This document shows, one piece after another, positions 7,974 to 29,495 of a stretch of DNA of 64,000 nt. Position numbers and translations under genes: made by a program. Under the pieces are notes generated by a model, which saw only the letters and a list, made by a program, of their open reading frames with translations, was not told the origin of the DNA and did no database searches. The stretch's first letter is position 1, and each line of letters begins with the position of its first letter. Location: contig NZ_CP082322.1 in NCBI RefSeq assembly GCF_019884725.1, positions 1,736,001 through 1,800,000 of the forward strand, written 5' to 3'. This stretch comes from Leucobacter tenebrionis (lineage in GTDB: Bacteria; Actinomycetota; Actinomycetes; Actinomycetales; Microbacteriaceae).

Positions 7974-9350
7974 CTAGCGCTTCGCCGGCCTCCAGTCCTT
8001 CCACTCGCCGCTCCGCTCGAAGTCGAGGTCGAGCGGGACACCCGTACGATCTCTCAGCAGCGACGTCGCGAGCAGCCCGATCGCCGTCATGGTGAGCAGG
8101 TAGACGACGATGGCCCAGGTGGTGCCGAAGGACTGCAGCAGGATCTGCGCGATCGTGGGAGCGAACGCGCCGCCCAGCACTCCGCCGAGGGCGTAGCTGA
8201 TCGAGATGCCCGAATAGCGCACGGATGCAGGGAAGGTCTCGGAGTACCACACGGCCTGCGGCCCGTAGGTGAGCCCGAGGCCGACGGCGAGTAGACACGT
8301 ACCGACGAGCACTCCGCCGACGCCGCCGTTGAAGACGAACTGGAACAGCGGGATGATGCCCGCGGCCTGCACGAACCAACCGACCGTCACGACGGGCTTA
8401 CGGCCGAACCTGTCGGTCAGAGCGCCCGCCGCGAGAGTGGAGGCCGCCCAGACGACGGCAGCGGTGAGCACCGCGAGCTGAACGTGCACGGGATTGTAGC
8501 CCAGGCCGCCCTGATCCTCGAGGCGCGAGGCGAGTCCCTGCACGTAGCCTCCGGTGAGCATGTAGCCCACGGCGTTGTTGCCCGCGAAGAACAGCGCACT
8601 GACGATCACGAGCGGCAGGTGCTGCTTCAGCACCTGCACGATCGGCGCCGATTCCTGCTGACGCGTCTCCTTGATCTCGTTGAACACCGGCGACTCGTCG
8701 ACGGTGCGGCGGATGACGAAGCCCACCACGATCAGCACGACCGAGAACAGGAACGGCACGCGCCAACCCCACACCTCGAACGCCTCTCCCGGAGCGATCG
8801 CCCCCATGAGCGCGAGCATGGCGGAGGCGAGCAGCATGCCGAACGGCACACCCAGCTGCGGGAAGATGCCGTACAGACCGCGCTTGCCCGTGGGCGCGTG
8901 CTCGACCGACATCAGCACGGCGCCGCCCCACTCGCCGCCCGCGGAGATGCCCTGCAGGATGCGCAAGAAGATGAGGATCGCGGGAGCGGCCATCCCGATG
9001 GTCTGGTAGGTGGGCAGCAGTCCGATCCCGACCGTCGCGACCCCCATCAGCAGCAGTGTGATGACGAGCATCGGCCGACGCCCGAGCTTGTCGCCGAAGT
9101 GCCCGGCGAGGAACGCGCCGAGCGGGCGGAAGAGGAAGGAGAGGCCGATGGTCACGAGCGAGAGGATCTGCATCATGCCCGGGCCTGCGGGTTCGAAGAA
9201 GAGCTTCGCCAGCACGAGGTTCGCGGCGAAGGCGTAGATGAAGAAGTCGTACCACTCGATCGTGGTGCCGATCATCGATGCCGCGACGACCTTGCGGCGT
9301 TCGCGGCCGGTACTCTCGGTTCCGAGGTCGGCTGAGGCGGTGCTGGTCAT
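7974..9350 (-). CDS. MHS-family MFS transporter of P450 module 1
   Basis: A 458-residue, 12-helix major facilitator. It opens with IGTTIEWYDFFIYAFAANL, the signature of the metabolite:H+ symporter group (shikimate, proline/betaine, ketoglutarate carriers). GHFGDKLGRRPMLV is the loop 2-3 motif and GRKPVVTVGW its repeat. The gene follows the P450 gene on the same strand by 64 bases and is probably co-transcribed with it, so it should import the P450 substrate or a related organic acid. It is a clear paralogue of the carrier at 17625-19001 (shared WYDFFIYA, GGEWGGAVLM, LTYGPQA). Confidence 0.9.
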   Translation of the reverse strand: MTSTASADLGTESTGRERRKVVAASMIGTTIEWYDFFIYAFAANLVLAKLFFEPAGPGMMQILSLVTIGLSFLFRPLGAFLAGHFGDKLGRRPMLVITLLLMGVATVGIGLLPTYQTIGMAAPAILIFLRILQGISAGGEWGGAVLMSVEHAPTGKRGLYGIFPQLGVPFGMLLASAMLALMGAIAPGEAFEVWGWRVPFLFSVVLIVVGFVIRRTVDESPVFNEIKETRQQESAPIVQVLKQHLPLVIVSALFFAGNNAVGYMLTGGYVQGLASRLEDQGGLGYNPVHVQLAVLTAAVVWAASTLAAGALTDRFGRKPVVTVGWFVQAAGIIPLFQFVFNGGVGGVLVGTCLLAVGLGLTYGPQAVWYSETFPASVRYSGISISYALGGVLGGAFAPTIAQILLQSFGTTWAIVVYLLTMTAIGLLATSLLRDRTGVPLDLDFERSGEWKDWRPAKR

Positions 9351-9414
9351 AGTTCGACGTCCTTGTCTGATGGTTGGGTGGGTGAGAAGACGCGGCGGAT
9401 TGGTACGGGATCCG

Positions 9415-10617
9415 TCACCACGTCACGGGCAGGGCCGTGATCCCGCGGAACACCCAGCCGTCCCAGCGGGTGTCGCGGTCGGTCGCGAGTTCGAGACCGG
9501 GGATCCGCTCGTAGAGGCGCGGCAAGGCGTACTCTCCCACCGCGGTCTTGGCGGCCCAGCGGCCGGCGCACATGTGCACTCCCGCGCCGAAGCCGAGGTG
9601 TCCGCGCGCACGCCGGCGCACGTCGTAGTGCGCTGCGTGCGGGAACACCGCTTCGTCACGGTTGGCGCTCGCGAGCAGGAGACCCATGTTCGCGCCGGCG
9701 GGCAGCGAGAATCCTTCTAGCTCGGTATCGTCGACGAGCTCACGCGGAATCATTCCGATCGGCGACTGCCAGCGCACGGTCTCCTCGAAGACGTCGCCCC
9801 AGGCGACCTCGCCCGCCAGCACCTCGGCCCGCTGGTCCGGGTGCGTGGAGAGCGCCCAGACGATGTTCGTGATCATGTGCTGCGGCTCGTTCATCCCGCC
9901 CGAGATCGTCAGGTGGACGTTCGCGCGTACGGTCTCCTCCGGGAGACCGACTTGGAGCAGGTGGGAGGTGATCGACCCGTCGGGGGTGCGGCGCAGCACC
10001 GGCAGCAGCGAATCGAGGATCGTGTTCACCTCCGCCTGGCTCCGATCGCAGCGCCGCCAGATATCGGCGTCGTCGAGCAGGTTGCCGATTCCGGCGATGT
10101 AGTCGGTGGACCAGCGGCGCATGTCGTCGACGTGCACGTCCGATGGGAAGCCCAGCAGGTCGATGAGGTTCTGACTCGCAACCGGCGCCGCGAAGTCGCG
10201 GTTCAGATCGGCGTGCGCCGGGCCGATCTCCAGCAGCCGAGCGATCCAGCGGTCGACGTTCTTCTCGAAGCTGGGCGACCACACCTCCTTGATGGCCCTG
10301 GGTCGCAGAGTGGGGTTGATGGCGGAGCGCTCTGCCGCGTGAGCCGGATCGTCCTTCCTCAGCATCGGACGCCCGCCGAGCGCGCGCATCATGGTGAGGT
10401 TCTGCTCCGAGTAGGAGCTGAAGCGCTCCGGGTGCTGCTCGGCCCAGCTCACCGCCGCGTGCGTGGTGAGAAAGTAGCGCTGGACGGCGGGCGCGAAGAC
10501 CACTGGTCCCGTCTCTCGAAGCCGCTCGTAGCTGGGGTATGGATCGCGCATCGCCTCCCGCGGATCGAACCAGTCGGCCACCGGGACTTCGACGGCGGCG
10601 AGTGCAGTGCCGGGCAT
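9415..10617 (-). CDS. cytochrome P450, stand-alone (module 1)
   Basis: A 400-residue soluble bacterial P450 starting at the ATG at 10617, preceded by an aaaggag box. Heme loop FGAGVHMCAG gives the thiolate ligand Cys350; the K-helix ExxR is EETVR (about 278-282). The I-helix reads SGGMNEPQH at 239-247, without the usual acid-threonine pair (AGxDT), which is odd for a monooxygenase. No N-terminal anchor is present. Electrons most likely come from the [2Fe-2S] ferredoxin and reductase encoded divergently at 11855-13370. Closely similar in layout to the P450 part of the fusion at 13494-16469. The substrate is unknown. Confidence 0.93.
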   Translation of the reverse strand: MPGTALAAVEVPVADWFDPREAMRDPYPSYERLRETGPVVFAPAVQRYFLTTHAAVSWAEQHPERFSSYSEQNLTMMRALGGRPMLRKDDPAHAAERSAINPTLRPRAIKEVWSPSFEKNVDRWIARLLEIGPAHADLNRDFAAPVASQNLIDLLGFPSDVHVDDMRRWSTDYIAGIGNLLDDADIWRRCDRSQAEVNTILDSLLPVLRRTPDGSITSHLLQVGLPEETVRANVHLTISGGMNEPQHMITNIVWALSTHPDQRAEVLAGEVAWGDVFEETVRWQSPIGMIPRELVDDTELEGFSLPAGANMGLLLASANRDEAVFPHAAHYDVRRRARGHLGFGAGVHMCAGRWAAKTAVGEYALPRLYERIPGLELATDRDTRWDGWVFRGITALPVTW

Positions 10618-10632
10618 GGCTGCTCCTTTGCA

Positions 10633-10657
10633 GATCCGTGTTCGTTGCTCACGGATC
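10633..10657. promoter_or_regulatory. dyad upstream of the P450 gene, putative LysR site
   Basis: A perfect dyad, gatccgtg-N9-cacggatc, lies 16 bases before the P450 start. A further cacggat copy, followed by ggataatcc, lies at 10710-10719. The spacing suits a LysR-type operator for the regulator encoded just upstream; this is inference. Confidence 0.45.
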
Positions 10658-10755
10658 ATCCTGCATACGAAACAACCTCGCCTCAAACGGTGCTTTCCGG
10701 TCTTTGATCACGGATAATCCGGGGATTGCCTCGTCGAGTCCATCAGCCGGCATCC

Positions 10756-11724
10756 TCACCCCAGACGGTCGCCCAAGCTCGTCATCATCTCTCCTCGCAG
10801 TTGCTTCGCGCAGTCGACCACCGCGGCGACCCTGGGGGGCAGAGGGTTCTGCGGCCAGGCGACGAGCACCTCGACGGGTCTGGGAGCCGGCACGATGGGC
10901 AGGTAGACGACACGGCGTCCGTCCCACGTCTCGGGCGAGACATTGCGCCGCATCAGCAGTGTGTACCCCAGCCCGCGCCCCACGAGCGCTCGGCACAGCT
11001 CGTAATCGGCGGTCCGGTGAGCGATGCGAGGGGTTATGCCCCGGCTCGACATGATCTCGAGCGTGTGAGTGCGGCTGGCCGCGATATCGAGCATGATCAT
11101 CGGCTCCTCCGCGACCTCCGAGAGATCGACGCTGTCGCGGGATGCGAGCGGATGCTCCTCCGATACGACGAGCATCGCCTCGGTGGTGGTGAGCGCGACG
11201 CGCTCGTACTCCGGCGGGACCTCGATGTCGAAGGTGACGACCAGGTCGAGTTCAGCACCCTCGGCTGCAGAGAGCATCGTGCCCAGATCGCCTGTCCGGT
11301 ACTCGATGTGGACACCGGGGTAGTTCTGGCGGGTCGCGATGAGCAGACGCGGGAGGATGAGACTCGCGAGCGTATTGATGAGGCCGATACGCACCGGGCC
11401 GACGATCGAGGACTGCTCGCGCCCGACCGAAGCGGTGAGTTCTGCACCGTCCGTAACGATTCTTCGGGCCAGCGGAAGGATCGTCAGCCCGTCCGAGGTG
11501 AGGGTGGCGCCGCGCGATCTCTGCCGCTTGAAGAGCGAGGCGCCGAGCGCGCGCTCCATTGCCGTGAGCGCGTCGGAAACCGCCGAGTCGGAGGCGTGCA
11601 GGGCGGCAGCGGCACCCGAGATCGAACCGGAGTCGGCGACGGCGAGGAAGCACTCGATCTGACGCAGAGTGAAGGGCAGCGACGGAAGACGGCGAGAGAG
11701 GTCGAGCGCTTCACGAGTATCCAT
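10756..11724 (-). CDS. LysR-family regulator of P450 module 1
   Basis: A 322-residue protein from the ATG at 11724 (an upstream in-frame ATG at 11778 is less likely). The N-terminal winged HTH includes FTLRQIECFLAVADSGSI and DSAVSDALTAMERALG. The C-terminal inducer-binding domain runs from about residue 105 (GPVRIGLINTLAS). It lies between the P450 gene and the divergent ferredoxin gene, placed to control both sides. It is a paralogue of the LysR at 16584-17507 (shared FTLRQ, AxSDAxTxxE, HRTxxYE and GRGLGY features). The ligand is unknown. Confidence 0.9.
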   Translation of the reverse strand: MDTREALDLSRRLPSLPFTLRQIECFLAVADSGSISGAAAALHASDSAVSDALTAMERALGASLFKRQRSRGATLTSDGLTILPLARRIVTDGAELTASVGREQSSIVGPVRIGLINTLASLILPRLLIATRQNYPGVHIEYRTGDLGTMLSAAEGAELDLVVTFDIEVPPEYERVALTTTEAMLVVSEEHPLASRDSVDLSEVAEEPMIMLDIAASRTHTLEIMSSRGITPRIAHRTADYELCRALVGRGLGYTLLMRRNVSPETWDGRRVVYLPIVPAPRPVEVLVAWPQNPLPPRVAAVVDCAKQLRGEMMTSLGDRLG

Positions 11725-11854
11725 GACGGCATTATCCCGGGTTAGCCGGGGAAGCACTACGACTTTTTCCGCTTCCATAGGGGTAGGCGATCCGTCATCA
11801 TCGGTGGAGACGCCCGCAGCGCGGGTCGTGACAGGACGATCGAAGGAGGCAAGG

Positions 11855-12175
11855 ATGCCGAGGATCAGCTACGTGGAGCCGGCCGGGGACTCCCGGGACG
11901 TCGAGGTGGAACCGGGGGTCTCGGTGATGCGCGCCGCGATCCTGAACGGCGTCGAGGGCATCATCGGAGAGTGCGGCGGACAGGCGATGTGCGCCACCTG
12001 CCATGTCTTCGTGGAGCGCACCGATGGCGAGTTGCCCGAGGTCGGCGACGACGAGGAGGAGATGCTGGAGTGCACCGCCGACGAGCGCCTCGAGAACAGC
12101 CGCCTCGGATGCCAGCTGCGCGCCGGTGATCACTTCGACGAGCTCGTGGTGCGCCTCCCCGAGAGGCAGGTGTGA
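11855..12175 (+). CDS. [2Fe-2S] ferredoxin, adrenodoxin/putidaredoxin type
   Basis: A 106-residue protein with cluster ligands Cys40, Cys46, Cys49 and Cys86 (GECGGQAMCATCHV ... LGCQL), the C-X5-C-X2-C-Xn-C spacing of vertebrate-type ferredoxins that serve bacterial P450s. The ATG at 11855 follows gaaggaggc. The reductase gene starts two bases after its stop, so the two are coupled. It should shuttle single electrons from the FAD reductase to the P450 at 9415-10617, possibly also to others. Confidence 0.94.
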   Translation: MPRISYVEPAGDSRDVEVEPGVSVMRAAILNGVEGIIGECGGQAMCATCHVFVERTDGELPEVGDDEEEMLECTADERLENSRLGCQLRAGDHFDELVVRLPERQV

Positions 12176-12176
12176 C

Positions 12177-13370
12177 GTGAACGGCGACGCCGTGATCCTG
12201 GGGGCGGGCCAGGGAGGCCTCACTGCGGCAGTGACGCTGCGAGAGCGCGGCTGGGTCGGCGCGATCCATCTCGTCGGAGAGGAGAACCGCGCGCCGTATC
12301 AGCGCCCACCGCTGTCGAAGGGATACCTCTCTGGTGTCGAATCTGAGCATGATCTGCTGCTCAGAAGCCTTGAATCGCTGGAACGCGATCAGATTGCGAC
12401 GCACCTGGGTGTCGCGGCGGTGTCGCTCGACACCGTGCGACAGCGAGTCGCGCTGAGCAATGGGACGGCACTCGCCTACAACGCTCTGATCTTCGCGACG
12501 GGATCCACACCCAGGCGGCTTTCGCTGGCCGGGAGCGAGTTCTCCGGCATCCACTCGGTCCGCACCGTGCAAGACTCCGACACCCTGCGCAAGGACCTCG
12601 AGCGCGGCGGGGATACCGTATTCATCGGCGGAGGCTTCCTGAACCTAGAAGTAGCCGCAGAAGCCTCCAAGCACGGCCGAGTGACGATACTCGAGGTCGC
12701 ACCCCAGATCCTTGGTCGTGTACTGAGCCGGGAGAGCGCTGAGGCCCTCGCCGACTTTCACTCGGGCCTCGGCATCGAGATCCGCTGCGGAGTCGAGATC
12801 GCCGGAATCACGGGCGACCGAGGCCGCGTCAGTGCGGTCGAGCTGAAGGACGGGACCGCGATCCCCGCCTCACGAGTCGTCGTATCGATCGGCGCAGAAC
12901 CGCGCGACGAACTCGCGCGGGAGGCGGGGATCAGGATCGCAGGCGGGATCGAGGTCGATGTGAACCTGCGATCCAGCGATCCCCGAATCTTCGCGATCGG
13001 CGACTGCGCACGCTATCCCAGCCCTTTCGCGGAGTGCGAAATGCGCGTGGAATCGGTGCAGAACGCCACAGACCAGGCGCGCTACGTCGCCGGTCTGCTG
13101 ACGGGCGGGCCGGAGAGCGGATACCGTGCGGTGCCCTGGTTCTGGAGCACGCAGGGGGAACGGCGGCTGCAGATCGCGGGAATCGCAATGCCGGGAGATG
13201 CCGCGCGAGTGGTCGAGCGCGGCGACGGAGGCAAACTCGTGGTCGAGCGGGTGCGCGATGGTCGCGTATCGGCCGTCGAGACGATCAACGCGCCCGGCGC
13301 CCACATGCGTGCGCGCCGGGCACTCGCGGCGTTCCCGGATCAGGCGATTGCGGCCGCCGCGGTCACCTGA
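12177..13370 (+). CDS. ferredoxin reductase, putidaredoxin-reductase type
   Basis: A 397-residue FAD protein from a GTG at 12177. VILGAGQGGLTAA (FAD Rossmann, about 6-18), RPPLSKGYL (43-51), FIGGGFLNLEVA (149-160, NAD(P)H domain) and IFAIGDCARYP (271-281, FAD-phosphate contact) are all present and in order, and it ends with the C-terminal interface domain. It moves electrons from NAD(P)H to the [2Fe-2S] ferredoxin just upstream. A truncated paralogue remains at 40613-41125. Confidence 0.94.
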   Translation: MNGDAVILGAGQGGLTAAVTLRERGWVGAIHLVGEENRAPYQRPPLSKGYLSGVESEHDLLLRSLESLERDQIATHLGVAAVSLDTVRQRVALSNGTALAYNALIFATGSTPRRLSLAGSEFSGIHSVRTVQDSDTLRKDLERGGDTVFIGGGFLNLEVAAEASKHGRVTILEVAPQILGRVLSRESAEALADFHSGLGIEIRCGVEIAGITGDRGRVSAVELKDGTAIPASRVVVSIGAEPRDELAREAGIRIAGGIEVDVNLRSSDPRIFAIGDCARYPSPFAECEMRVESVQNATDQARYVAGLLTGGPESGYRAVPWFWSTQGERRLQIAGIAMPGDAARVVERGDGGKLVVERVRDGRVSAVETINAPGAHMRARRALAAFPDQAIAAAAVT

Positions 13371-13493: not shown

Positions 13494-16469
13494 TCACGCG
13501 CGGGAGACCGTCGCGGCCGCCACCTCGGCGAAGACGCCCGCCGCCCAGTCGCGGGCCGCCTCCGCCGCCGGGATCGACCCGCCTGCGTCGTGCCGGCCGT
13601 ACTCCCCCAGCCGCGAGGCTCCGCACGCCTGCAGCGCCTCGTCGACGAGTTCGCTGCCGCGCGAGTAGGTGCGCTCGTAGCTGCGGTCGCCCATGCCGAA
13701 CACCGCATAGCGCACACCCGCGAGGTCGGGGCGCTCCTCGAGCAGTCGGCGCACGAACGGCTGGGCCGAGCTCGGCACCTCGCCGTCTCCGTAGGTCGAG
13801 CACACGATGAGGTGCATCCGCGCGGGATCGAGTTCGTCGGCGCGCACGTCTCCGAGGTCCCGCACCCGCACATCCGCCGCCTCCCCGAAGAGGCGCGAGA
13901 GCTCGTCGGCCACGAGCTCCGCACCACCCGACTCGGTGCCGAAGAGGATCGTCGTCGGCACCTCCGCTCCGATCTCCGCGACGCCGCCCGCGTCGAGCGG
14001 CGGCAGTTCGAGACTCGCGTCGCCCGCGGCCTCGAGCTGGGCTTCGCGACTCTGCAGCTTCGCCCGCTCGCGGCCGGGGGCAGCGGTGAGGCGCTCCCGC
14101 AGGTCGATGCGGCGCCAGCCGTCGAAGTCGGTCTCCCCGTCGATCGAGGGCAAACCGGGTGCGGAGGCCGTCACGGCGCCCGATTGCAGGTCCGCGGCAA
14201 CGATGAGCGCGAGGTCCCGTGCGTCGGCCCGCTGATCCGGGATCGTGCCGCGGGGCCCGCGGCGCAGCCAGCCCGCGGTGTAGAGGCCCGGTTTCACCCG
14301 GCCGTCGGGGTGGGCGCCCGGTTCGACGGGGGCGCCGGTGTCGGAGGCGAATCCGACTGCGGTGATCACATCGGAGGTGGGGATCCGCACCTCCCCCTCC
14401 GCGCCGCTGAACACCGCGGCCTCGACCCGCTCCATCCCTTCCAGCCGCTCGGGCGAGAGGCCGAACCACCACTCCAGGGTGACGCGCGGGTCGGTAACGG
14501 GATCCGCGAGGAGCGCCCGCACCGCGTCGATGCGCGCGTCGCGTCCGTCGTCGGGCAGTTCTCCCGCGCCGTGCACGACGTGCCGCACCCCGGGCAGCCC
14601 GGCCAGTTCGCGCACCATCACGGGGTCGAACTTCGCCGACGCGGGGGCGCTGCGCCCCACGAGATGCAGTGTGCGCACCCGCTCGGTGAAGCGCCGGTGG
14701 GCGGCATCGTCGATATCGGACCCCTCGAGGCCCGCGGCGTCTCGAGCGACGAGGCGGGCGACGTCCATCGCCACGTTGCCGTGCCCGACCACGACCACGC
14801 TCTCCCCCAGCGGCTCGGGCGCCTGCTCGTCAGGGTGGGTGTTGAGGAATCGGGTGACCGCTCCCGCACCGCGCACGCGCGGGAGCGAGGCGCCGGGCAC
14901 CGGCAGCTCGGCGTCGCGGTGCATACCGGTGGCGAGCACCACGACGTCGTAGGCCCGTTCGAGCTCCTCGAGGGCGAAGTCGACTCCCAGGCGGCAGTTG
15001 CCCCTGAACCGCACGCCCTCCTCGGTGAAGAGCCGATCGAACTGCCGGGCCACCGCCTTCGTGCCCTGGTGGTCGGCCGCCACGCCGTAGCGCACGAGCC
15101 CGTAGGGCGTGGGCAGTTCGTCGAACACCTCGATCGGCGCAGCGGGGAAGGTGCGCCGCAGAGCCTGCGCGGTGAAGCTGCCGGCGGGTCCGGATCCCAC
15201 GATCGCCACGCGGGGCGCGGGGGCGTCGTCGGTGCGCGCTTCGGCGGCCCGGCTGTCGGAGACTCCGGATCCTGATCGACGCCCGCTCCACGTCGCGGGC
15301 AGCTTCAGCATGCCACGGAACACCCAGCCGCCGATCTCCGCCGGATCCTCGTCGATGAGCGACAGTCCCTCCAGCGACGAGAAGAGCAGCGGGAGCGCCA
15401 CCTCGGCGACCTCGGCCCGCGCGGCCCAGGCTCCGAGGCAGACGTGCACGCCCTTGCCGAAGGCGAGGTGGGGCTTCGCCTCGCGGCGGATGTCGAAGGC
15501 CGCGGGATCGTTCCAGACTCGCTCGTCGCGGTTCGCGGAGAGGATGCAGATGCCCAGCCGGGCGCCGGCGGGAAGGCGCACACCCGCGAGTTCGGTGTCC
15601 CGCGTGACCTGGCGCGAGTACAGCCCGATCGGCGCGACCCAGCGGATCGTCTCGTCGAAGACGGCCTGCCAGAGCGAGGGGTCCCGCTCGACCGCGGCAC
15701 GCTGCTCGGGGTGGGTGAGCAGCGCCCAGGCCGCCACGCCGAGCGCATCGCGCGGCTCGTTGAGACCGCCGCCGATCGTCATCTTCACGTTGGCCCTGAT
15801 CCGCTCGATCGGCATCTTGTAGTCGGGGATCTGCAGCAGCTGCGACAGCAGCGACTCGTTCGGATTCGCGGCGTGCCACGCGAGCATCTCGTCGAGCGCC
15901 GCGTCGACCTCGTCGAACGATTGCTTGCCGAGCGCCCACACCTCCGGATCGTCGGCGTAGTTGCCGGTCGCGTCGATCATGGTCTGCGACCAGCGCTGCA
16001 GATCCTGCTGCGTGGCATTGTGCAGGCCGATGAGCTCGCGCAGGCTCTCGGCCGCGAAGGGCGCCGAGAAATCCCAGATCAGATCCGCTCCCGGCCCCTT
16101 CGCGATGAGCTCTTCGAGGTAGCGCTCGGCGTTGCGCTGGAACTTCGCCTTCCAGATGCGCTGCACCGCGCCGGGCCGGAGCGCGGGCTGCCAGGCCTTC
16201 CGCTCGATGTAGTGCTCGGGATCATCCCGGCGCAGCATCGAGTGGCCCATCGCCCGGATCTGCAGCGACCCCTGCTCATCGGCCGAGAAGATCTGCTGAT
16301 CGAGCTCGGTCTCGTGCACCGCCTCGTAGGAGGTGATGAGGTAACGGCCGACCTGCGGCACCCAGTGCACGCCGCCCTCGGCGCGGAGCCGCTCGTAGAT
16401 CGGGAAGGGATCGCGGTAGAGGTCGGGAATGGTGACCCAGTCGGCGACCGGAGCCTCGTTGCTCGTCAT
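13494..16469 (-). CDS. P450 - FAD/NADPH reductase - FMN flavodoxin fusion
   Basis: One 991-residue reading frame holds three redox domains. Residues 1-395: P450 with I-helix IGGGLNEPRD (232-241), ExxR DETIR (272-276) and heme loop FGKGVHVCLG with Cys344. Residues 419-805: adrenodoxin-reductase/FprA-like domain with GSGPAG (425-430) for FAD, RYGVAADHQG, and GHGNVA (562-567) for NADPH. Residues 838-991: flavodoxin/FMN domain with ILFGTESGGAE and CSTYGDGEVP, like the FMN domain of diflavin reductases. Linkers rich in A, S, D and E join them. Electron path NADPH-FAD-FMN-heme within one chain is inferred. The order and the FAD-domain family differ from CYP102 and CYP116B. It is divergent from a LysR gene 114 bases away. 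Confidence 0.93.
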   Translation of the reverse strand: MTSNEAPVADWVTIPDLYRDPFPIYERLRAEGGVHWVPQVGRYLITSYEAVHETELDQQIFSADEQGSLQIRAMGHSMLRRDDPEHYIERKAWQPALRPGAVQRIWKAKFQRNAERYLEELIAKGPGADLIWDFSAPFAAESLRELIGLHNATQQDLQRWSQTMIDATGNYADDPEVWALGKQSFDEVDAALDEMLAWHAANPNESLLSQLLQIPDYKMPIERIRANVKMTIGGGLNEPRDALGVAAWALLTHPEQRAAVERDPSLWQAVFDETIRWVAPIGLYSRQVTRDTELAGVRLPAGARLGICILSANRDERVWNDPAAFDIRREAKPHLAFGKGVHVCLGAWAARAEVAEVALPLLFSSLEGLSLIDEDPAEIGGWVFRGMLKLPATWSGRRSGSGVSDSRAAEARTDDAPAPRVAIVGSGPAGSFTAQALRRTFPAAPIEVFDELPTPYGLVRYGVAADHQGTKAVARQFDRLFTEEGVRFRGNCRLGVDFALEELERAYDVVVLATGMHRDAELPVPGASLPRVRGAGAVTRFLNTHPDEQAPEPLGESVVVVGHGNVAMDVARLVARDAAGLEGSDIDDAAHRRFTERVRTLHLVGRSAPASAKFDPVMVRELAGLPGVRHVVHGAGELPDDGRDARIDAVRALLADPVTDPRVTLEWWFGLSPERLEGMERVEAAVFSGAEGEVRIPTSDVITAVGFASDTGAPVEPGAHPDGRVKPGLYTAGWLRRGPRGTIPDQRADARDLALIVAADLQSGAVTASAPGLPSIDGETDFDGWRRIDLRERLTAAPGRERAKLQSREAQLEAAGDASLELPPLDAGGVAEIGAEVPTTILFGTESGGAELVADELSRLFGEAADVRVRDLGDVRADELDPARMHLIVCSTYGDGEVPSSAQPFVRRLLEERPDLAGVRYAVFGMGDRSYERTYSRGSELVDEALQACGASRLGEYGRHDAGGSIPAAEAARDWAAGVFAEVAAATVSRA

Positions 16470-16583: not shown

Positions 16584-17507
16584 ATGCCCGCGAACTCCTC
16601 CGCCCCGCTGCCGTCGTTCACCCTGCGGCAGCTCGCGTACTTCGTCGCGGCCGCCGACGAGGGCACCATCACGGGCGCGGCGGAGACGCTCCGGGTCTCA
16701 CCCTCGGCCATGTCCGACGCCATCACGGAACTCGAGTCCGCGATGCGCGAGCGGCTCTGCGTGCGTCGGCGCGCCCACGGCCTCACGCTCACCCCGGCCG
16801 GCCGCCGACTCGTGCAGCACGCCAGGCGGATGCTGGCAGAGGCCGAGGAGCTGCACCGCTCCGTGGGAGGCGAGGGGCGGCTCTCGGGCCCCGTCGTGCT
16901 CGGCTGCTACCCCACCCTCGCCCCCACGATCCTTCCCCCGCTGCTGCAGGACTTCGCCGCGCTCCACCCCGGCATCGAGCTCTCGATCCGGGAGTCCACG
17001 CAGGACCGTCTGGCCCACGACCTCGCATCCGGCCGCATCGATGTGGCGGTCGTCTACGACATGCTCGTGCCGGTCGACACCGAACGCGCCAGACTGTACG
17101 AACTGCAGGCCCACGCACTGCTCGCCGCCGGTCACCCGCTGGCCGCGCGCGAGACGGTGCAGCTGGAGGATCTGGCCGGCGACGACCTCATCCTGCTCGA
17201 CGCGCCGCCATCCAGCGAGCACACCCTCTCGGTGTTCGCCGAGCGGGGCCTCCGCCCCCGCATCAAGCACCGCACCGCGAGCTACGAGGTGGTGCGCACA
17301 CTCGTCGCACGCGGCCTGGGCTACGGCGTCCTCGTCTCCCGCGTGGCGAATCCGAACAGCTACGAGGGGTTGCCGCTGGTGGCGAAGACGATCGTGCCGC
17401 AGGTGCGACCCGTGGCGGTCGACATGGTCTGGGCGGTCGACAGACCGGTGCCCGCGCGAACCCGAGCGCTGATCGAGTTCGCTCGAGGGGTCGATTGGCC
17501 GTCGTGA
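16584..17507 (+). CDS. LysR-family regulator of P450 module 2
   Basis: A 307-residue LysR protein: FTLRQLAYFVAAADEGTI and SPSAMSDAITELESAM form the N-terminal HTH, and the inducer domain starts near GPVVLGCYPTLAP (about 105). It is divergent from the P450 fusion gene (114 bases, AT-richer at 16525-16565) and is followed by the MHS carrier 117 bases downstream on the same strand. Control of the fusion P450, and perhaps of the carrier, is the expected role. It is a paralogue of the LysR at 10756-11724. Confidence 0.9.
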   Translation: MPANSSAPLPSFTLRQLAYFVAAADEGTITGAAETLRVSPSAMSDAITELESAMRERLCVRRRAHGLTLTPAGRRLVQHARRMLAEAEELHRSVGGEGRLSGPVVLGCYPTLAPTILPPLLQDFAALHPGIELSIRESTQDRLAHDLASGRIDVAVVYDMLVPVDTERARLYELQAHALLAAGHPLAARETVQLEDLAGDDLILLDAPPSSEHTLSVFAERGLRPRIKHRTASYEVVRTLVARGLGYGVLVSRVANPNSYEGLPLVAKTIVPQVRPVAVDMVWAVDRPVPARTRALIEFARGVDWPS

Positions 17508-17624: not shown

Positions 17625-19001
17625 ATGAGTACGTCCGCAGAATCGAGTCTCACACCGACGGGAACGATCGCCACAGAGACCGACAGACGACGCGTCGTCT
17701 TCGCCACCGTGGTCGGCACGACCGTCGAGTGGTACGACTTCTTCATCTACGCGCAGGGAGCCGCCCTCGTCTTCGCGGCGCTCTTCTTCGAGCCGGCCGG
17801 GGCGGGGATGGCGCAGATCCTGTCGTTCTTCACCGTCGGCATCAGCTTCCTGTTCCGTCCGCTCGGGGCGTTCCTCGCCGGTCACTTCGGCGATAAGTAC
17901 GGCCGGCGCGTCGTACTCATGTGGACGCTCATCCTGATGGGTGCGGCGACCACGCTGGTCGGCCTGCTGCCGACATACGCGACCATCGGAGCAGCCGCTC
18001 CCGTGCTGCTGATCCTGCTGCGCGTGCTGCAGGGCGTCTCGGCCGGCGGCGAGTGGGGCGGCGCCGTGCTGATGGCCGTGGAGCACGCACCGAAGACCAA
18101 GCGCGGTCTCTACGGCTGCTCCCCGCAGATCGGCGTGCCCCTCGGCATGCTGCTCGCGTCGGGTGTCATGGCGCTCGTCGCACTTCCCGGGCAGGAGTTC
18201 TTCCTCTCCTGGGGCTGGCGCATCCCCTTCCTGTTCAGCTTCGTGCTGATCCTGATCGGCTTCTACATCCGGCGCCGCGTCGAGGAGAGCCCGGTCTTTA
18301 CCGAGATCGCCGAGCGCGCGGAGGCGACGAAGAACCCGGTCGGCAAGCTCTTCCGCCGCTACACCCCGCTCGTCATCCTGGCCGCCCTCATCTTCGCCGG
18401 CAACAATGCGGTCGGCTACATGTCGACGGGCGGGTACATCCAGCGCTACGCGACCGACCCCGAGGGTCCGCTCGGCATGGAGCCCGCGCCGGTGCTGCTG
18501 GCGGTCACCGGCTCCGCCGCCACCTGGCTGATCTTCACGTGGGTCGGCGGCTGGCTCTGCGATAAGATCGGCCGCCGCACCACCTACATCATCGGCTGGG
18601 TCTCGCTGCTGATCGGGATCGCGGCGCTGTTCCCGCTCGTGAACACCGGCAGCATCGGCATGCTGTTCCTGGGGCTGGCGCTCCTGACCCTGGGCCTCGG
18701 CCTCACCTACGGTCCCCAGGCCGCCCTGTACTCGGAGCTGTTCCCCGCCTCGGTCCGCTTCTCCGGCGTGTCGATCTCGTACGCGATCGGCGCGATCGTG
18801 GGCGGGGCGTTCGCGCCCATGATCGCCACCGCGCTCGTCCAGGCGACCGGCACCACGGTGTCGGTGCAGATCTACCTGTCGACGATCGTGGTGCTCGCGC
18901 TCATCTCGACGCTGCTGGTGAAGGATCGCATGGGCATCCCCCTCGGGCCCGACAACGAGGAGGAGCAGGCCAGGATGCCGATCTACGGCGCCAAGGGCTG
19001 A
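17625..19001 (+). CDS. MHS-family MFS transporter of P450 module 2
   Basis: A 458-residue, 12-helix carrier, the same length as the module 1 carrier. VGTTVEWYDFFIYAQGAAL opens it; GHFGDKYGRRVVLMW and LCDKIGRRTTYII are the two loop motifs, and VEESPVF marks the central loop typical of metabolite:H+ symporters. A gaaggag box precedes the ATG. It ends just before a strong terminator. It should import the substrate of the neighbouring P450 fusion or a product of it; no specific ligand can be read. Confidence 0.9.
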   Translation: MSTSAESSLTPTGTIATETDRRRVVFATVVGTTVEWYDFFIYAQGAALVFAALFFEPAGAGMAQILSFFTVGISFLFRPLGAFLAGHFGDKYGRRVVLMWTLILMGAATTLVGLLPTYATIGAAAPVLLILLRVLQGVSAGGEWGGAVLMAVEHAPKTKRGLYGCSPQIGVPLGMLLASGVMALVALPGQEFFLSWGWRIPFLFSFVLILIGFYIRRRVEESPVFTEIAERAEATKNPVGKLFRRYTPLVILAALIFAGNNAVGYMSTGGYIQRYATDPEGPLGMEPAPVLLAVTGSAATWLIFTWVGGWLCDKIGRRTTYIIGWVSLLIGIAALFPLVNTGSIGMLFLGLALLTLGLGLTYGPQAALYSELFPASVRFSGVSISYAIGAIVGGAFAPMIATALVQATGTTVSVQIYLSTIVVLALISTLLVKDRMGIPLGPDNEEEQARMPIYGAKG

Positions 19002-19676: not shown

Positions 19677-21059
19677 TCAGGCCGCGGCCCCGGCGGGTTG
19701 CGGTTCGACCGCCGAATCCGAGTGCCGGGAGACGGCGCGGAGGCCGGCGAGCAGGGCGAGCAGGATGAACACGGGCACGAGCAGCGCTGAGAAGAACCCG
19801 CTGAGACCGAGGCCCGCGCCGATCAGCGCTCCGCCCGCCGCACCGCCCGCCGCCGATCCGAGCCGCCCGCTGAACTCGGTCGATCCCACCCCGGTGCCGC
19901 GCACGTCGGTGGGATACGCCGCCGCGGCCAGCACCGAGCGCGTCGGGCCGCAGGCCGAGGGCAGCAGGAAGCCGGTGACCGAGAGGAGCGCCAGAAGCGC
20001 GCCGTAGCCCGGTGACGGCGCGAGCCCGATCACCAGCACGGCCATCGCCGTCAGCGCGAGCGCGATCCCGATCGTCGCGAACCGCGAGGCCCGCACCAGG
20101 ACGACGCCGAGCAGCAGACCGCCCAGCACGCTGGTGAAGCCGTACGCCCCGACGATGGTGCTGCTCTGCACGGTATCGAGTCCCGGCTCGGGAAGCTGCA
20201 GCATGGTCGGCAGGTACTGCACCACCATCAGCTGGGTGCCGAGCGAGAAGAACCCGAAGGCCCAGAGCAGGATCGTCCGCGGGGCGAAGCGCCTCGAGAA
20301 GAGCTGCCGCCAGGCGCCGTGATCCGCGGTCCCTCTCGGCTGCGCCGCTCCCTCCAACAGGGCTCCCACCGAGCGGGGGTCCAGCCTGGCCGCGGCTCGC
20401 GCCGCCCTCTCGAGATCGCCTCGGGCGACGAGGAAGGGCGGGGCCTCCGGCACCACCAGGGCCAGCACGACGGCGATGACCAGCGGGATCGCGCCTCCGG
20501 CGATCAGCAGCCCCTCCCACCCAGCGGTCGGGATGATGACGGCGGCGAGCGTCGCGCCGACGGTGGTGCCGAGGCCCACGAACGCGTAGGCGGTCGCGAG
20601 CATGGCGGACCGGCGCCTCGGCGGCATGAGGTCGGCGAGGAGCGTGTTGCCCGTCGCCATCGCGGCTCCCATCCCGAGGCAGGCGAGCAGGCGCCAGGCG
20701 GAGAAGGACGCGAAGTCGGTCGAACTCGCCCCCAGCGCGGTGCCCGCCCCGAAGAGCAGGGTGGTCGTCACCAGCACGGGTTTGCGCCCCCAGCGATCGG
20801 CCGCCCGACCGGCCACGAGCGCACCTACCCCCATCGCGATGAACCCCGCCGAGACGAGCGCGGCGATCCCGCCCCCGATGGACACGCCCCACTGCTCGAT
20901 GAGCGAGGGGAAGATGTGGCTGACGATGGTGACGTCCATGCCGTCCGCGAGCAGCACCAGCGCGATGAGAAGGAACGCCACCCACTGGCGAGGGGTGAGT
21001 CGCGGGTCTCCGGAAGAGCCGCGGGTGCCGGTGAGTCGCTGGGCATCGGTGTGCGTCAT
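19677..21059 (-). CDS. AAHS-type MFS transporter (aromatic acid symporter-like)
   Basis: A 460-residue, 12-helix carrier. LLADGMDVTIVSHIFPSL in helix 1 has the D in the GxD(V/T) position typical of aromatic-acid:H+ symporters such as PcaK/BenK, and GRAADRWGRKPVLVTT is the loop 2-3 motif. The position, directly after acetoacetyl-CoA synthetase, cupin and FAH-like genes on the same strand, supports uptake of the aromatic or ring-derived substrate of this cluster. The exact substrate is unknown. Confidence 0.85.
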   Translation of the reverse strand: MTHTDAQRLTGTRGSSGDPRLTPRQWVAFLLIALVLLADGMDVTIVSHIFPSLIEQWGVSIGGGIAALVSAGFIAMGVGALVAGRAADRWGRKPVLVTTTLLFGAGTALGASSTDFASFSAWRLLACLGMGAAMATGNTLLADLMPPRRRSAMLATAYAFVGLGTTVGATLAAVIIPTAGWEGLLIAGGAIPLVIAVVLALVVPEAPPFLVARGDLERAARAAARLDPRSVGALLEGAAQPRGTADHGAWRQLFSRRFAPRTILLWAFGFFSLGTQLMVVQYLPTMLQLPEPGLDTVQSSTIVGAYGFTSVLGGLLLGVVLVRASRFATIGIALALTAMAVLVIGLAPSPGYGALLALLSVTGFLLPSACGPTRSVLAAAAYPTDVRGTGVGSTEFSGRLGSAAGGAAGGALIGAGLGLSGFFSALLVPVFILLALLAGLRAVSRHSDSAVEPQPAGAAA

Positions 21060-21111
21060 GGGGGTCTCCTGCTTCGTCGAAGGATGTCGTGGACGGGGAT
21101 CGCCGGGTCGT

Positions 21112-23097
21112 TCAGCTCGCGGGCAGCACCGCGGATTCCCGCTCCTCGGCGAAGCGCGCGTAAGCCGAGAGCAGTGCGGGATCGTCGACGGCCCCGAGGT
21201 CGGCCACCTCGGCGAGGGAGGCCCCCTGGATCAGCCGCTTCACCGGGACCTCGAGCTTCTTGCCGGTCCGGGTGTGCGGGATCCCGGGCATGACGACGAT
21301 GTCGTCGGGCACGTACCGCGGCGAGAGATGCGTGCGGATCGCCGCGACGATCGCGGTTCGCGCCGCCGACTCGTCGACGCCCTCGGCGAGTCTCACGAAC
21401 AGCGGCATGTAGTAGCCGTCGTCGCCGATCTCGGCGCCGACGATGAGCGCCTCGACGACCTCGGGCAGGGCCTCGACGATCGCGTAGATGTCGGCGGAGC
21501 CCAGCCTGAGTCCGTTGCGGTTGAGCGTCGAGTCGCTTCTGCCGTGGATGAGGATTCCCTCCTTCGCGAACTCGACGAAGTCCCCGTGACGCCAGACGCC
21601 CGGGTACGTCTCGAAGTAGCTCGCGCGGTAGCGCTCGGATCCGGGGTCATCCCAGAAGAAGAGCGGCATCGACGGCATCGGCGCCGTGACGACGAGCTCG
21701 CCCCTGCCGCGCGCGGGCTGCCCGTTCTCGTCCCAGGACTCGACCCGCACCCCGAGCGCCGGGGCCTGGATGTACCCCACGCGCACGGGGAGCGTCGGCG
21801 TGCCGCCGACGAACACCGAGGCGATGTCGGTTCCCCCGCTCATCGAGCTGAGCCAGACGTCCCCGACGTTCGCGTACACCCATCGGTACCCGTCGCTCGA
21901 CAGGGGGGAGCCGGTGACCTGCACGCAGCGCAGCGCCGAGAGATCGTGGTCTTCGCTGGGACGCAGCTCCGTCTTCGCGCACGCGTGGATGAACCCTGCG
22001 CTGACCCCGACGGCGGCGGCCCGCGTCTCGGCGGCGACCTCCCAGACGTGGTCGACCGAGGGGTAGACGGGGTTGCCGTCGAGCAGCACCGCGGTCGCGC
22101 CGACGCCGAGGGAGGAGACCAGGGAGTTCCAGAGCACCCAGCTCGTCGACGCGACGTTCAGGTACCGGTCCCCCGGCCTCAGATCCGAGTGGATGAGCAG
22201 CATCTTCAGAGTCTCGAGCAGGGCTCCGCCGTGGCCGTGCACGATCCCCTTCGGCTTGCCGGTGGTACCGGACGAGAAGAGCACCCAGAGCGGATGGCTG
22301 AACTCGACATCGGTGAAGCGCAGCTCGTGATGACCCGAGACGGCCTCCTCCCACACGACGCTCGGCTGCGCCGTCGCGGGCGGCGGCACCTCGGTGTGCC
22401 CCGTCGCCCAGATCACGCGATCGACCCCGGGCAGTGCCGCGAGCACCTCGCCCAACTCGGTCCGACGGTCGCGATCCCGACCCGACAGCCGATAGCCGGG
22501 AGCGGCGATCACCACCTTCGGATCCAGCTGCGCGAACCGCGAGATGATCGCACCGGGTCCGAACTCGGGTGCGCACACCGACCAGGTGGCCCCGAGCGCC
22601 GCGGTGGCGAGCAGCCCCACCACCGCCTCAGCGACGTTGGGCAGCACCCCCACGACCCGGTCCCCGGCACCGACGCCCTGACTGCGCAGATACGCACCGA
22701 GCGCGGCCGTCTGGCGGCGCAGCTCCTCCCAGCTCGTCTCAGTGGTCGTCCCGTTCTCGTCGACCGCGATGAGCGCGACGCCGTCGCGCCCGGCGAGCAG
22801 GTGCCGCGCGAAGTTCACCGTGCGGCCGGGGAACCACCGCGCCCCCGGCATGGCGGGGTCCGGCAGCACCGGCCCTGCCTCGCCCGCGAGCTCCACCCCC
22901 GCGTACTCCGCGAACAGCTCCCAGAACGCCTCCGGCTCGTCGACCGACCAGCGCCAGAGCTCGTCGTAGCCGTCGCCGAACGAGGCGCCCCGCGCTCTCG
23001 CGAGCCCGGCGAAGCGCGTCACGTGGGCGGCCGCCGCGGTCGCGTCATCCGGAGCCCAGATCACCTCGCCGTCGCCGGCCGCGGGGTCGATGATCAC
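21112..23097 (-). CDS. acetoacetyl-CoA synthetase
   Basis: A 661-residue ANL-superfamily ligase from a GTG at 23097 that overlaps the cupin stop (GTGA). LFSSGTTGKPKGIVHGHGG is the ATP-binding P-loop, SGGTDIASVF and YPGVWRHGDFVEF follow, and NRNGLRLGSADIY plus HTRTGKKLEVPVKR contain the catalytic lysine. The N-terminal ACAS_N region (WSVDEPEAFW) and the total length match acetoacetate-CoA ligase rather than acetyl-CoA synthetase. It converts acetoacetate, ATP and CoA to acetoacetyl-CoA in the cytoplasm. Beside an FAH-like hydrolase this would salvage acetoacetate released by ring cleavage; the thiolase at 34383 could finish the route. Confidence 0.93.
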   Translation of the reverse strand: MIIDPAAGDGEVIWAPDDATAAAAHVTRFAGLARARGASFGDGYDELWRWSVDEPEAFWELFAEYAGVELAGEAGPVLPDPAMPGARWFPGRTVNFARHLLAGRDGVALIAVDENGTTTETSWEELRRQTAALGAYLRSQGVGAGDRVVGVLPNVAEAVVGLLATAALGATWSVCAPEFGPGAIISRFAQLDPKVVIAAPGYRLSGRDRDRRTELGEVLAALPGVDRVIWATGHTEVPPPATAQPSVVWEEAVSGHHELRFTDVEFSHPLWVLFSSGTTGKPKGIVHGHGGALLETLKMLLIHSDLRPGDRYLNVASTSWVLWNSLVSSLGVGATAVLLDGNPVYPSVDHVWEVAAETRAAAVGVSAGFIHACAKTELRPSEDHDLSALRCVQVTGSPLSSDGYRWVYANVGDVWLSSMSGGTDIASVFVGGTPTLPVRVGYIQAPALGVRVESWDENGQPARGRGELVVTAPMPSMPLFFWDDPGSERYRASYFETYPGVWRHGDFVEFAKEGILIHGRSDSTLNRNGLRLGSADIYAIVEALPEVVEALIVGAEIGDDGYYMPLFVRLAEGVDESAARTAIVAAIRTHLSPRYVPDDIVVMPGIPHTRTGKKLEVPVKRLIQGASLAEVADLGAVDDPALLSAYARFAEERESAVLPAS

Positions 23098-23711
23098 GCG
23101 ACGCTCCGGGCGGTGGCCCCGGCCCGACGCCGCTCGGCGATCTCGCCGGCGGAGAGGGCCGGGGTGCCGATGAGCACGAACAGCATCCGCGCCGGCCGGT
23201 CGGTGCGATTCGACCAGGCGTGGCTCGTCGCGCGCTGCACGACGATGTCGCCGGGCCGCACCACCGTCTCGCCATCGTCGACCATCAGCACGACCTCGCC
23301 GTCGAGCACCACCGCGTAGTCGAGCGAGTCGGTGCGGTGGAACCAGAAGTGCTTGCCGCCGCTGCTGTCGTGGCCGGCGCGGGCCTCGTCGTGACCGTCG
23401 AGCTCGGTGAAGATGACCGAGCTCGCGTCGTCGGGATACACCGAGTCGGGCGGGAAGTCCGCGATGCGCAGGATGGTCTGCCCGGGGCCCGGGAACGACG
23501 GCACCTCGGCGTCGCCCGCCGCCGCGTCGACGTCCGTGACGTGGTCGATCTCGGGGTCGAGCGTCATCCACGGCACGGTCGCCCCGAAGCCGGGGATGGT
23601 GTCCGATTCGAAATGGTGCGGGGCGGGCCCGTCGAAGAGGATGACGGCCTTCCCGTCGTCGTCGTGACCGGTGACGACCCTGCGTACGGCTGCGCGGGCC
23701 ACGGGGTTCAC
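23094..23711 (-). CDS. cupin-domain protein
   Basis: A 205-residue protein from a GTG at 23711, coupled at both ends (GTGA overlaps with the FAH-like gene before and the ligase gene after). One conserved cupin barrel is visible near residues 120-185: DSLDYAVVLDGEVVLMVDDG, then RPGDIVVQRATSHAW with a histidine in the second cupin motif. The first motif lacks the full HxH pattern, so metal binding is uncertain. This cupin type recurs in aromatic catabolic clusters; it could be an isomerase, a lyase or an accessory sensor. It is too short and divergent for homogentisate dioxygenase. Confidence 0.82.
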   Translation of the reverse strand: MNPVARAAVRRVVTGHDDDGKAVILFDGPAPHHFESDTIPGFGATVPWMTLDPEIDHVTDVDAAAGDAEVPSFPGPGQTILRIADFPPDSVYPDDASSVIFTELDGHDEARAGHDSSGGKHFWFHRTDSLDYAVVLDGEVVLMVDDGETVVRPGDIVVQRATSHAWSNRTDRPARMLFVLIGTPALSAGEIAERRRAGATARSVA

Positions 23712-24721
23712 TCCCCGTCCTCGTAGGGGTAGGGGCGCGGCTCCGGCCACCAGGGAGTCGTCTCCTTCTGGCCGGCGAGCCGGTTGCGCAGCGTGCCGAC
23801 GCCCTCGAGCTCGAGCTCGACGACGTCGCCCGGTTCGATGAGGCGGTTGATCTCGACACCGGCGCCGAAGCCCATGGTCCCGGAGCCAATGAGGTCTCCG
23901 ACCTGCAGCTGCCCGTAGAGCGAGACGTAGGCGACCAGCTCCGCCGGAGTGTAGACGAAGTTCTCCACGCGGGTATCGGATCGCACCTCGCCGTTGACCC
24001 GCACCTGACCGGTCAGCCCCTCGATCGACTCGATCTCGTCGAGGGTGGTGATCCACGGGCCGATGCCGTAGGCGAAGTCCTTGCTGTGCTGGGCCCCCAT
24101 GCCGATCGGGCTCTCGAGCGCCTGCACGTCGCGCAGGCTCCAGTCGTTGAAGATCGTGATGCCGAACACGTGCGAGAGCGCGTCGTCCGGAGTGAGATTG
24201 CGGCCGGGCCTTCCGATGATGTAGCCGATCTCGAGCTCGTAATCGAGCTTCTCGGAGATGCTCGGATACGGCACCTCCTCCTCGTGCCCGTACACCGTCG
24301 CCGTGTTGCCCTTGAAGAACCCGGGGCGCTCGTAGACGGCGCGCACCGGCTTGCCGTGCACCACGTTCTTGAAGTAGTTCTCGATGTGGGTGCCGAAGGT
24401 GAGGCCGTCGCGGATCACCGGCGGATCGATCGCCGCTCGCCACGACACGGAGTCGATCGGGGCGGATGCGTCGTCGGCGGCGGCGAGGGCCTCGTGGGCC
24501 CTGTCCAGGAAGGCGTCTCCCGCCGCCAGTGCGTTCGACAGGCTGGCCGGGAAGAGCGCGAGCGAGACCTCGCGCGCGCGGTCGGGCGTGGCCCCGTTGC
24601 GCTGCAGCGCGAGCGAGTAGGCGCGGGCGAGGTCGATGACGCGCCCGGCCTCGGGCTCGACCGCGACGACCCGCGTCACTTCGCCGTCGGGCGATGGAAC
24701 CGAGATCCGTCCGATTTTCAT
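23708..24721 (-). CDS. fumarylacetoacetate hydrolase family protein (1)
   Basis: A 337-residue enzyme. The metal-site segments are YELEIGYIIGR (two of the acidic ligands), FNDWSLRDVQ (third acidic ligand), and LIGSGTMGFGAGVEI near the C-terminus. HIENYFKNV around residue 120 corresponds to the active-site His region. Its N-terminal extension and the YPSISEKLDYELEIG context put it with FAH/UGL-000128-type hydrolases. It is first gene of the operon FAH-cupin-AACS-AAHS-TetR, behind a strong dyad (24745-24767). Release of acetoacetate from an acylpyruvate-type intermediate is suggested by the ligase two genes downstream. Confidence 0.88.
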   Translation of the reverse strand: MKIGRISVPSPDGEVTRVVAVEPEAGRVIDLARAYSLALQRNGATPDRAREVSLALFPASLSNALAAGDAFLDRAHEALAAADDASAPIDSVSWRAAIDPPVIRDGLTFGTHIENYFKNVVHGKPVRAVYERPGFFKGNTATVYGHEEEVPYPSISEKLDYELEIGYIIGRPGRNLTPDDALSHVFGITIFNDWSLRDVQALESPIGMGAQHSKDFAYGIGPWITTLDEIESIEGLTGQVRVNGEVRSDTRVENFVYTPAELVAYVSLYGQLQVGDLIGSGTMGFGAGVEINRLIEPGDVVELELEGVGTLRNRLAGQKETTPWWPEPRPYPYEDGE

Positions 24722-24744
24722 GAGGCCTCCTTAGGCTTCTTTGC

Positions 24745-24767: not shown

Positions 24768-24803
24768 AGAGATTCCATCGGAGTGTCCACTCCGCCGGGA
24801 AAC

Positions 24804-24844: not shown

Positions 24845-24852
24845 CAGCGCGG

Positions 24853-29477: not shown

Positions 29478-29495
29478 GTCACTCCTTTGTGTGCA

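Follow-up and report, generated by a model that had tools for sequence, protein, structure and literature searches.

A conserved cytochrome P450 joined to an adrenodoxin reductase-type domain and a C-terminal flavodoxin in Leucobacter tenebrionis and other Actinomycetota

Introduction

Cytochrome P450 (P450) systems are grouped by their redox partners. The part of a redox-class table consulted (PMC9112060) places separate ferredoxin reductase (FdR) and flavodoxin (Fld) proteins in class III, Fld–P450 fusions in class VI, the CYP116B type in class VII and P450s with an FdR/flavin mononucleotide (FMN) unit, the CYP102 type, in class VIII, and it holds no P450–FdR–Fld chain of the adrenodoxin reductase (AdR) kind. 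Self-sufficient P450 classes number two in a 2020 paper (PMC7260179), and one more in a 2022 review (PMC9687028), as far as the consulted portions of both go. The subject of this analysis is a gene of Leucobacter tenebrionis that joins a P450, an AdR-type flavin adenine dinucleotide (FAD) domain and a flavodoxin-like FMN domain in one chain. It lies in the window, a 64,000-nucleotide stretch of contig NZ_CP082322.1 (positions 1,736,001 to 1,800,000).

The solved P450 closest to the fused heme domain is CYP1232A24 of Arthrobacter sp. (PDB 6g71; 62% identity, Foldseek). According to the consulted part of the 2022 review, Klenk et al. proposed an Arthrobacter gene cluster that holds two P450s, a flavodoxin and a flavodoxin reductase, and the paper cited for this cluster names CYP1232A24 in its title (PMC9687028).

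Domain architecture of the fusion

The gene is read from the minus strand, where the reverse complement of 13494–16469 translates as one ATG-to-stop frame of 991 residues; in the frame check the plus strand of this interval is not the gene. A Shine-Dalgarno-like GAGGTG stands directly 5' of the ATG, and third-position G+C is 0.91. The single uninterrupted frame described in the initial annotation is thereby borne out. The gene lies on a one-contig genome of 3.38 Mb and its single-frame arrangement is seen again in independent assemblies, so that neither a frameshift nor read-through explains it. The one-chain, three-domain P450 is confirmed as an observation.

Pfam finds p450, Pyr_redox_2 and Flavodoxin_1 in the order claimed in the initial annotation, all above their cut-offs and among four hits in total; Flavodoxin_1 covers residues 841–963 (E = 3.2e-24, an E-value for the whole protein). 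Phmmer searches of the PDB match residues 5–395 to the P450 6g71 (567 bits), residues 417–636 to adrenodoxin reductase 1cjc and residues 421–774 to FprA 1lqt. The FAD domain has the glutathione reductase (GR) fold, the GxGPxG and GxGNVA motifs and, in both of these latter matches, the C-terminal GW..RGP.G.I stretch that mark the AdR/FprA family, and Foldseek of an AlphaFold model matches it to FprA/AdR with a template modelling (TM) score of 0.77–0.78 by target length. Domain identities, order and reductase family are all upheld by these searches, and the heme ligand Cys344, GSGPAG (425–430) and GHGNVA (562–567) are all found, in agreement with the initial annotation.

The cofactor motifs are intact across the family. 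An alignment of 36 fused homologues, 64–88% identical to the query and picked from the homologues listed, shows C344, G425/G427/P428/G430 and G562/G564/N565/V566/A567 to be invariant, together with E846/S847/G848/A850/E851 of the FMN phosphate loop, Y893/G894/G896/E897 and the residues of the ESGxAE, YGxGE and GDxSY stretches. Mean pairwise identity in these proteins is 0.78 for the P450, 0.62 for the FAD domain and 0.66 for the FMN domain (linkers in Table 1). The I-helix stretch of the heme domain reads GGGLNEPRD, without the usual Thr; in most P450s an acid–Thr pair stands at this place. GGG[LM]NEP is kept in all 120 of the matches listed and GGGxNEP at 23 of 24 stand-alone P450 loci, while CYP1232A24, an oxygenase, carries the same GGGLNEPRD as the fusion. 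According to a review, XplA has lost the acid–Thr pair (PMC8081977).

The nucleotide site departs from the AdR pattern. The paired Arg of the GRRGP stretch in adrenodoxin reductase serves the 2'-phosphate of NADPH, and in the fusion the alignment shows Ser for the second Arg (GRSxP). This S607 is present in at least 90% of the 36 fused proteins, and separate FprA partners carry RS or RG in nine of the nine shown, with RR in the distant locus L003. Because the site reads GRSxP and not GRRGP, a preference for NADPH should not be assumed, and the predicted nucleotide is given here as NAD(P)H.

Relation to known P450 systems

By P450 nomenclature, identity above 40% defines a family and above 55% a subfamily, and the heme domain taken alone belongs with CYP1232. 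CYP1232A24 shares its I-helix stretch and falls in its sister group, but the solved chain is not fused and its partners are reported as separate components. P450cin belongs to another P450 family. Its class III system runs from an FAD reductase through an FMN flavodoxin, cindoxin, to heme, an order that the fusion would match, but it is a three-component system in the portion of the review consulted (PMC9687028), whereas the fusion is one chain. The suggestion that the fusion puts the logic of P450cin into one chain thus holds as a likeness, although CYP1232A24 is the nearer relative.

The class VI system XplA/XplB has a reductase, a flavodoxin and a P450 as its parts (PMC8081977, consulted in part), but its flavodoxin is N-terminal to the P450 and its reductase a separate protein, whereas the fusion has a C-terminal flavodoxin and carries the reductase on the chain. 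An XplB/XplA-like arrangement, a separate FAD reductase followed by a flavodoxin–P450 fusion, was seen on a Rhodococcus erythropolis R138 plasmid (L156, 4929–7922). In CYP102A the cytochrome P450 reductase (CPR)-like unit has its FMN domain before its FAD domain, whereas the AdR/FprA-type FAD domain of the fusion precedes the FMN domain. Class VIII CYP102A (P450BM3) is likewise one chain, running NADPH–FAD–FMN–heme in the part of the source consulted (PMC7260179), but its FAD domain has the ferredoxin-NADP reductase (FNR)/CPR fold (PMC9687028) and that of the fusion the GR fold. Class VII CYP116B resembles the fusion as one chain with the heme domain first and the electron carrier last; it differs in its phthalate dioxygenase-type reductase and [2Fe-2S] carrier (PMC7260179), whereas the fusion has Flavodoxin_1, and no Fer2 among its four Pfam hits. 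The cyclohexanecarboxylate P450 of Paraburkholderia terrae KU-64 is another unusual one-chain P450, but it runs from a [2Fe-2S] ferredoxin through an FAD domain to the P450 (PMC9687028).

The contrast with CYP102, CYP116B and P450cin made in the initial annotation therefore stands, and the architecture lies outside the classes of the reviews consulted. A search of the open-access literature by title and abstract, with subscription papers outside its scope, found no account of a P450–AdR–Fld architecture and no characterised protein of the same order; the family is uncharacterised as far as this literature shows.

Distribution and conservation

The homologue search found 271 proteins, of which 120 were listed, the query among them. 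Heme, FAD, nucleotide, FMN and FMN-loop motifs stand in the fusion order in 119 of these 120, and the remaining protein, P0110, misses only the YGDGE pattern; the order is not unique to the query. One-piece matches over almost the full length, free of stops, occur in 19 of 54 Leucobacter genomes (own genome included), and three further genomes (G022, G036, G048) have matches that are split, truncated where a contig ends or in several pieces. Named carriers belong to Leucobacter, Agrococcus, Microbacterium, Serinicoccus, Labedella, Arthrobacter and Pseudoglutamicibacter; a Subtercola metagenome-assembled genome (MAG) and an unclassified Micrococcales strain are further carriers. With the own genome counted, the fusion occurs in 10 of 396 genomes sampled evenly across the order and in 2 of 394 in a sample of the class. 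A related stand-alone P450 is matched in 60 of 245 Micrococcaceae genomes: 15 of the best 30 loci are fused, and in the other 30 genomes, mostly judged by frame length alone, no open frame at this place exceeds 813 aa.

The ratio of nonsynonymous to synonymous substitution rates (dN/dS) in three pairs is 0.06–0.08 for the P450, 0.10–0.21 for the FAD domain and 0.17–0.25 for the FMN domain. Purifying selection acts on all three domains, and the fusion is a conserved, widespread family and no one-off. In a Microbacterium MAG (L048, ~9626–9644) the fusion gene is intact except for a frame change in its FAD domain, which may reflect an error of sequencing.

Origin of the fusion

The fused heme domains form one clade in a quick tree (SH-aLRT 99; 37 fused of 67 rows) and in a careful tree (100/99; 30 fused of 55 rows), for which 14 of the 67 rows were dropped for long branches or thinning and two Rhodococcus rows were added. 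In the careful tree they join P0130, P0131, P0132 and CYP1232A24 in a clade (96/92), and 2% of its 200 bootstrap trees unite the stand-alone P450s in a single clade. The fused reductase halves (34 rows) part in one step from 10 rows of separate FprA and flavodoxin (SH-aLRT 99). Two candidate fusions were rejected: G508, where a 1076-aa open frame surrounds the P450 of a ferredoxin-type locus, and G224/L093, where the P450 stands alone.

The redox partners of fused and unfused relatives are not mixed. At least 48 stand-alone P450 matches were obtained, and 24 of their loci were examined with a reach of 5 kb. A same-strand [2Fe-2S] ferredoxin is present in 24 of 24, an HcaD-like FdR in 23 and an oppositely oriented LysR gene in 22, and neither FprA nor flavodoxin was found within this distance in any of the 24. 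In the best 30 Micrococcaceae loci, compared over ~3–4.2 kb each, 15 have an FAD domain in the P450 frame and no ferredoxin, and the other 15, of which 13 are also among the 24 stand-alone loci, have a ferredoxin and an FdR but lack an FAD domain. The LysR gene adjoins the P450 in both types. Rhodococcus plasmid relatives (~49–50% identity) share the P450–ferredoxin–FdR layout.

Since the partner types are unmixed and the fused proteins form one clade, one P450 lineage apparently exchanged iron-sulphur partners for FprA and flavodoxin and then fused them. The direction, from [2Fe-2S] to flavin, is suggested by the ferredoxin type being common to the outgroup P450 of the window and to Rhodococcus. 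Many Leucobacter genomes carry FprA and flavodoxin as separate genes. These pairs run FprA–Fld in all eight loci read, where they lie near other P450s, one of them CYP125-like; matches that might have been two-domain fusions were rejected, as a stop or frame change separates the genes at each of the eight junctions. At locus L054 a P450, FprA and flavodoxin follow one another on one strand, three genes arranged like the domains of the fusion.

Close relatives of CYP1232A24 with separate flavodoxin genes were sought in 10 genomes of one genus, which gave only 53–56% matches, and in 30 plasmid records, which are all below 60% to P0130 and gave no such relative. Because no such cluster was found in the genomes searched, the separate-flavodoxin intermediate rests on the statement in the consulted part of the review (PMC9687028). 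The balance of evidence leans towards P450–AdR–Fld being a further class in Actinomycetota, in which [2Fe-2S] partners would have been replaced wholesale by flavin partners on one chain, an iron-sparing swap caught at several stages, with two unfused forms extant, the relatives on iron-sulphur partners and the CYP1232A24 system.

Predicted electron path and substrate

In the proposed machine, NAD(P)H would reduce the FAD of the AdR-type domain, and from there electrons would pass one at a time to the FMN of the flavodoxin at the C-terminus. Tethered flexibly, this flavodoxin would act as a shuttle to the proximal side of the heme domain at the N-terminus, and this CYP1232A-like domain would O-demethylate methoxylated phenylacetates (homovanillate-type acids) to homoprotocatechuate for meta-cleavage. 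The machine would have arisen when a P450 lineage with [2Fe-2S] ferredoxin/HcaD-type reductase relatives took up an FprA plus flavodoxin pair and fused with it. This electron path and the self-sufficiency of the protein are likely, and the whole proposal, a self-sufficient P450–AdR–Fld methoxyphenylacetate O-demethylase with a flavin electron chain and a single origin by partner swap and fusion, is advanced with good though incomplete confidence.

The substrate clues come from relatives and neighbours. After CYP1232A24, the next-best P450s by phmmer are 8u09/8u19 and GcoA entries, whose titles name SyoA and GcoA. Both are aromatic O-demethylases, and CYP1232A24 is presumably a demethylase of dimethoxyphenylacetate; for these two reasons O-demethylation of methoxyphenylacetates is the best guess, and a role in supplying the homoprotocatechuate pathway is likely. 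Among 26 named loci, HpaE-type genes lie within 8 kb of the fusion in 10, HpaD-type genes in 7 and genes of the fumarylacetoacetate (FAA) hydrolase family in 9. One representative of each was scanned: HpaE (654.7 bits, cut-off 638.35) and HpaD (440.9, cut-off 321.4) exceed their cut-offs, an HpaH representative (343.8) falls just below 351.5, and the FAA hydrolase is far below the HpaG cut-offs and above that of the general FAA-hydrolase model. In L. tenebrionis two adjacent genes at 3.02 Mb exceed the HpaD and HpaE cut-offs. In the order sample, all 10 genomes with the fusion have an HpaD above cut-off, as do 112 of the 386 others (Fisher test, 5.9e-6), a test that ignores kinship, with 7 of the 10 fused genomes from one genus.

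Several points weigh against this proposal. The HpaE, HpaD and FAA-hydrolase neighbours all belong to the 15 non-Leucobacter loci and to none of the 11 Leucobacter loci; in L. tenebrionis itself HpaD and HpaE lie more than 1.2 Mb from the fusion, and HpaD, over cut-off in 48 of 54 Leucobacter genomes, fused or not, does not discriminate within the genus. As to the origin, the approximately unbiased (AU) test after the quick tree put a tree with all stand-alone P450s in one clade 10.01 log units ahead of the free tree (p-AU 0.624), so the quick tree does not support nesting; the careful tree has long branches meeting at its root, and the unfused flavodoxin-partnered intermediate was not seen in the genomes and plasmids searched. 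The AlphaFold model is weak (mean predicted local distance difference test (pLDDT) score 76.2, predicted TM score 0.56, heme region below 50; TM 0.67 and root-mean-square deviation 12.7 to 6g71). Domain contacts are not readable from it, and with its heme region poorly predicted the fold assignment of that domain rests on sequence. The cofactor load, the transfer of electrons within the chain and the substrate are likewise predictions from sequence.

The same machine might instead act on another substrate, as a hydroxylase or demethylase of a different aromatic acid, a possibility to be taken seriously although it is the less favoured one. The restriction of nearby HpaE-type genes to those 10 loci speaks for it, as do a phenol-2-monooxygenase-like gene in six loci and another aldehyde dehydrogenase in six, besides or instead of HpaE; the identity to CYP1232A24, presumably a dimethoxyphenylacetate demethylase, and the presence of HpaD in every fused genome of the order sample speak for methoxyphenylacetates. 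Less probable, and in our judgement unlikely, is that the reductase half works as a general reductase for further cellular P450s, for example the stand-alone one next to it, either as a second task or as its main one, the fusion being mere tethering: unfused FprA and flavodoxin pairs do adjoin other P450s in the genus, but beside the neighbouring P450 stand a ferredoxin and an FdR of its own, in a cassette that also occurs away from the fusion, and the fused heme and reductase halves each form one clade, as a dedicated pair would. That separate proteins were joined into one long frame by read-through or faulty assembly is rejected as having next to no probability: in Leucobacter massiliensis the halves do stand in different frames and a separate 600-aa reductase is recorded (P0241), but the junction there holds a stretch resembling a damaged sequencing adaptor, and the single frame recurs in the Leucobacter genomes counted above and in named genomes of several genera. 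In this L. massiliensis genome (L050, ~9170–9300) the adaptor-like stretch breaks the fused gene at linker 1, and the split is probably an assembly error in the public genome.

Gene neighbourhood

Table 1. The fusion gene, its parts and neighbouring genes, in window positions
Feature	Position	Strand	Basis
Gene of P450–FAD reductase–flavodoxin fusion, 991 aa	13494..16469	-	open frame; Pfam p450, Pyr_redox_2, Flavodoxin_1; one-piece homologues in other genomes
P450 heme domain, residues 1–395	15285..16469	-	phmmer to 6g71; C344 invariant in 36; GGG[LM]NEP in 120/120 listed
Heme-ligand Cys344 codon	15438–15440	-	within P450 heme domain
Variable linker 1, residues 396–416	15222..15284	-	mean pairwise identity 0.17 in 36 fused proteins; pLDDT <50 at 400–414
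AdR/FprA-type FAD + NAD(P)H domain, residues 417–812	14034..15221	-	phmmer 1cjc, 1lqt; Foldseek
Linker 2, residues 813–836	13962..14033	-	mean pairwise identity 0.34 in 36 fused proteins
Flavodoxin-like FMN domain, residues 837–985	13515..13961	-	Flavodoxin_1 at 841–963; FMN-loop residues conserved in 36
Divergent LysR-type regulator	16584..17507	+	LysR Pfam domains; divergent beside fusion in relatives
Major facilitator superfamily (MFS) symporter, metabolite:H+ family	17625..19001	+	TIGR00883 390.7 bits, below cut-off 443.45
Second, stand-alone P450	9415..10686	-	44% identical to fused heme domain, BLASTP 175/394
[2Fe-2S] ferredoxin	11855..12175	+	PF00111 24.9 bits vs cut-off 21, E 2e-5; frame, Met start, Cys pattern
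HcaD-like ferredoxin reductase	12003..13370	+	Pyr_redox_2, Reductase_C; NF042949 253.4 bits, below cut-off 450
LysR-type regulator of second P450 cassette	10756..11778	-	NCBIfam and Pfam scans, locus comparison

The divergent LysR gene adjoins the fusion in 25 of the 26 named loci (L025–L050, with L034 the exception) and in all 18 loci from the same genus (L006–L023), and it probably regulates the fusion gene. MFS genes like the one beyond it stand near the fusion in many relatives. A small gene (165 aa; L038, 6466–6963) is present at 12 fused loci, mostly beside the LysR gene, and an NCBIfam scan of the L038 copy gives no match at E 1e-20.

A second P450 cassette occupies 7974–13370, with MFS, P450 and LysR genes on the minus strand and a divergent [2Fe-2S] ferredoxin and HcaD-like reductase, the probable partners of this P450. 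The ferredoxin has no match at a stricter limit of 1e-8, and the true start of the reductase is placed later than 12003 since homology begins near residue 62. Whole or in part, the cassette recurs apart from the fusion in the genus (L060, L063, L064, L066). On the other side, 19677–31633 holds a PcaK-like transporter (below cut-offs), an AMP-ligase, two FAA hydrolases, two FAD_binding_3 monooxygenases, a LysR gene and, at 29576–30625, an extradiol-type dioxygenase with 169 bits to HpaD, below cut-off; it is likely an aromatic catabolic cluster.

Significance

The order of P450 first, AdR-type FAD domain next and flavodoxin last is unlike that of the self-sufficient P450s in the consulted parts of the reviews. 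A conserved family of this different build offers a natural experiment on what domain order and reductase fold do to the delivery of electrons, and aromatic O-demethylases of a single component might be drawn from it. Among orthologous heme domains, some occur with ferredoxin, some reportedly with a separate flavodoxin and some with a fused flavin unit, and the exchange of redox partners may therefore be studied directly.

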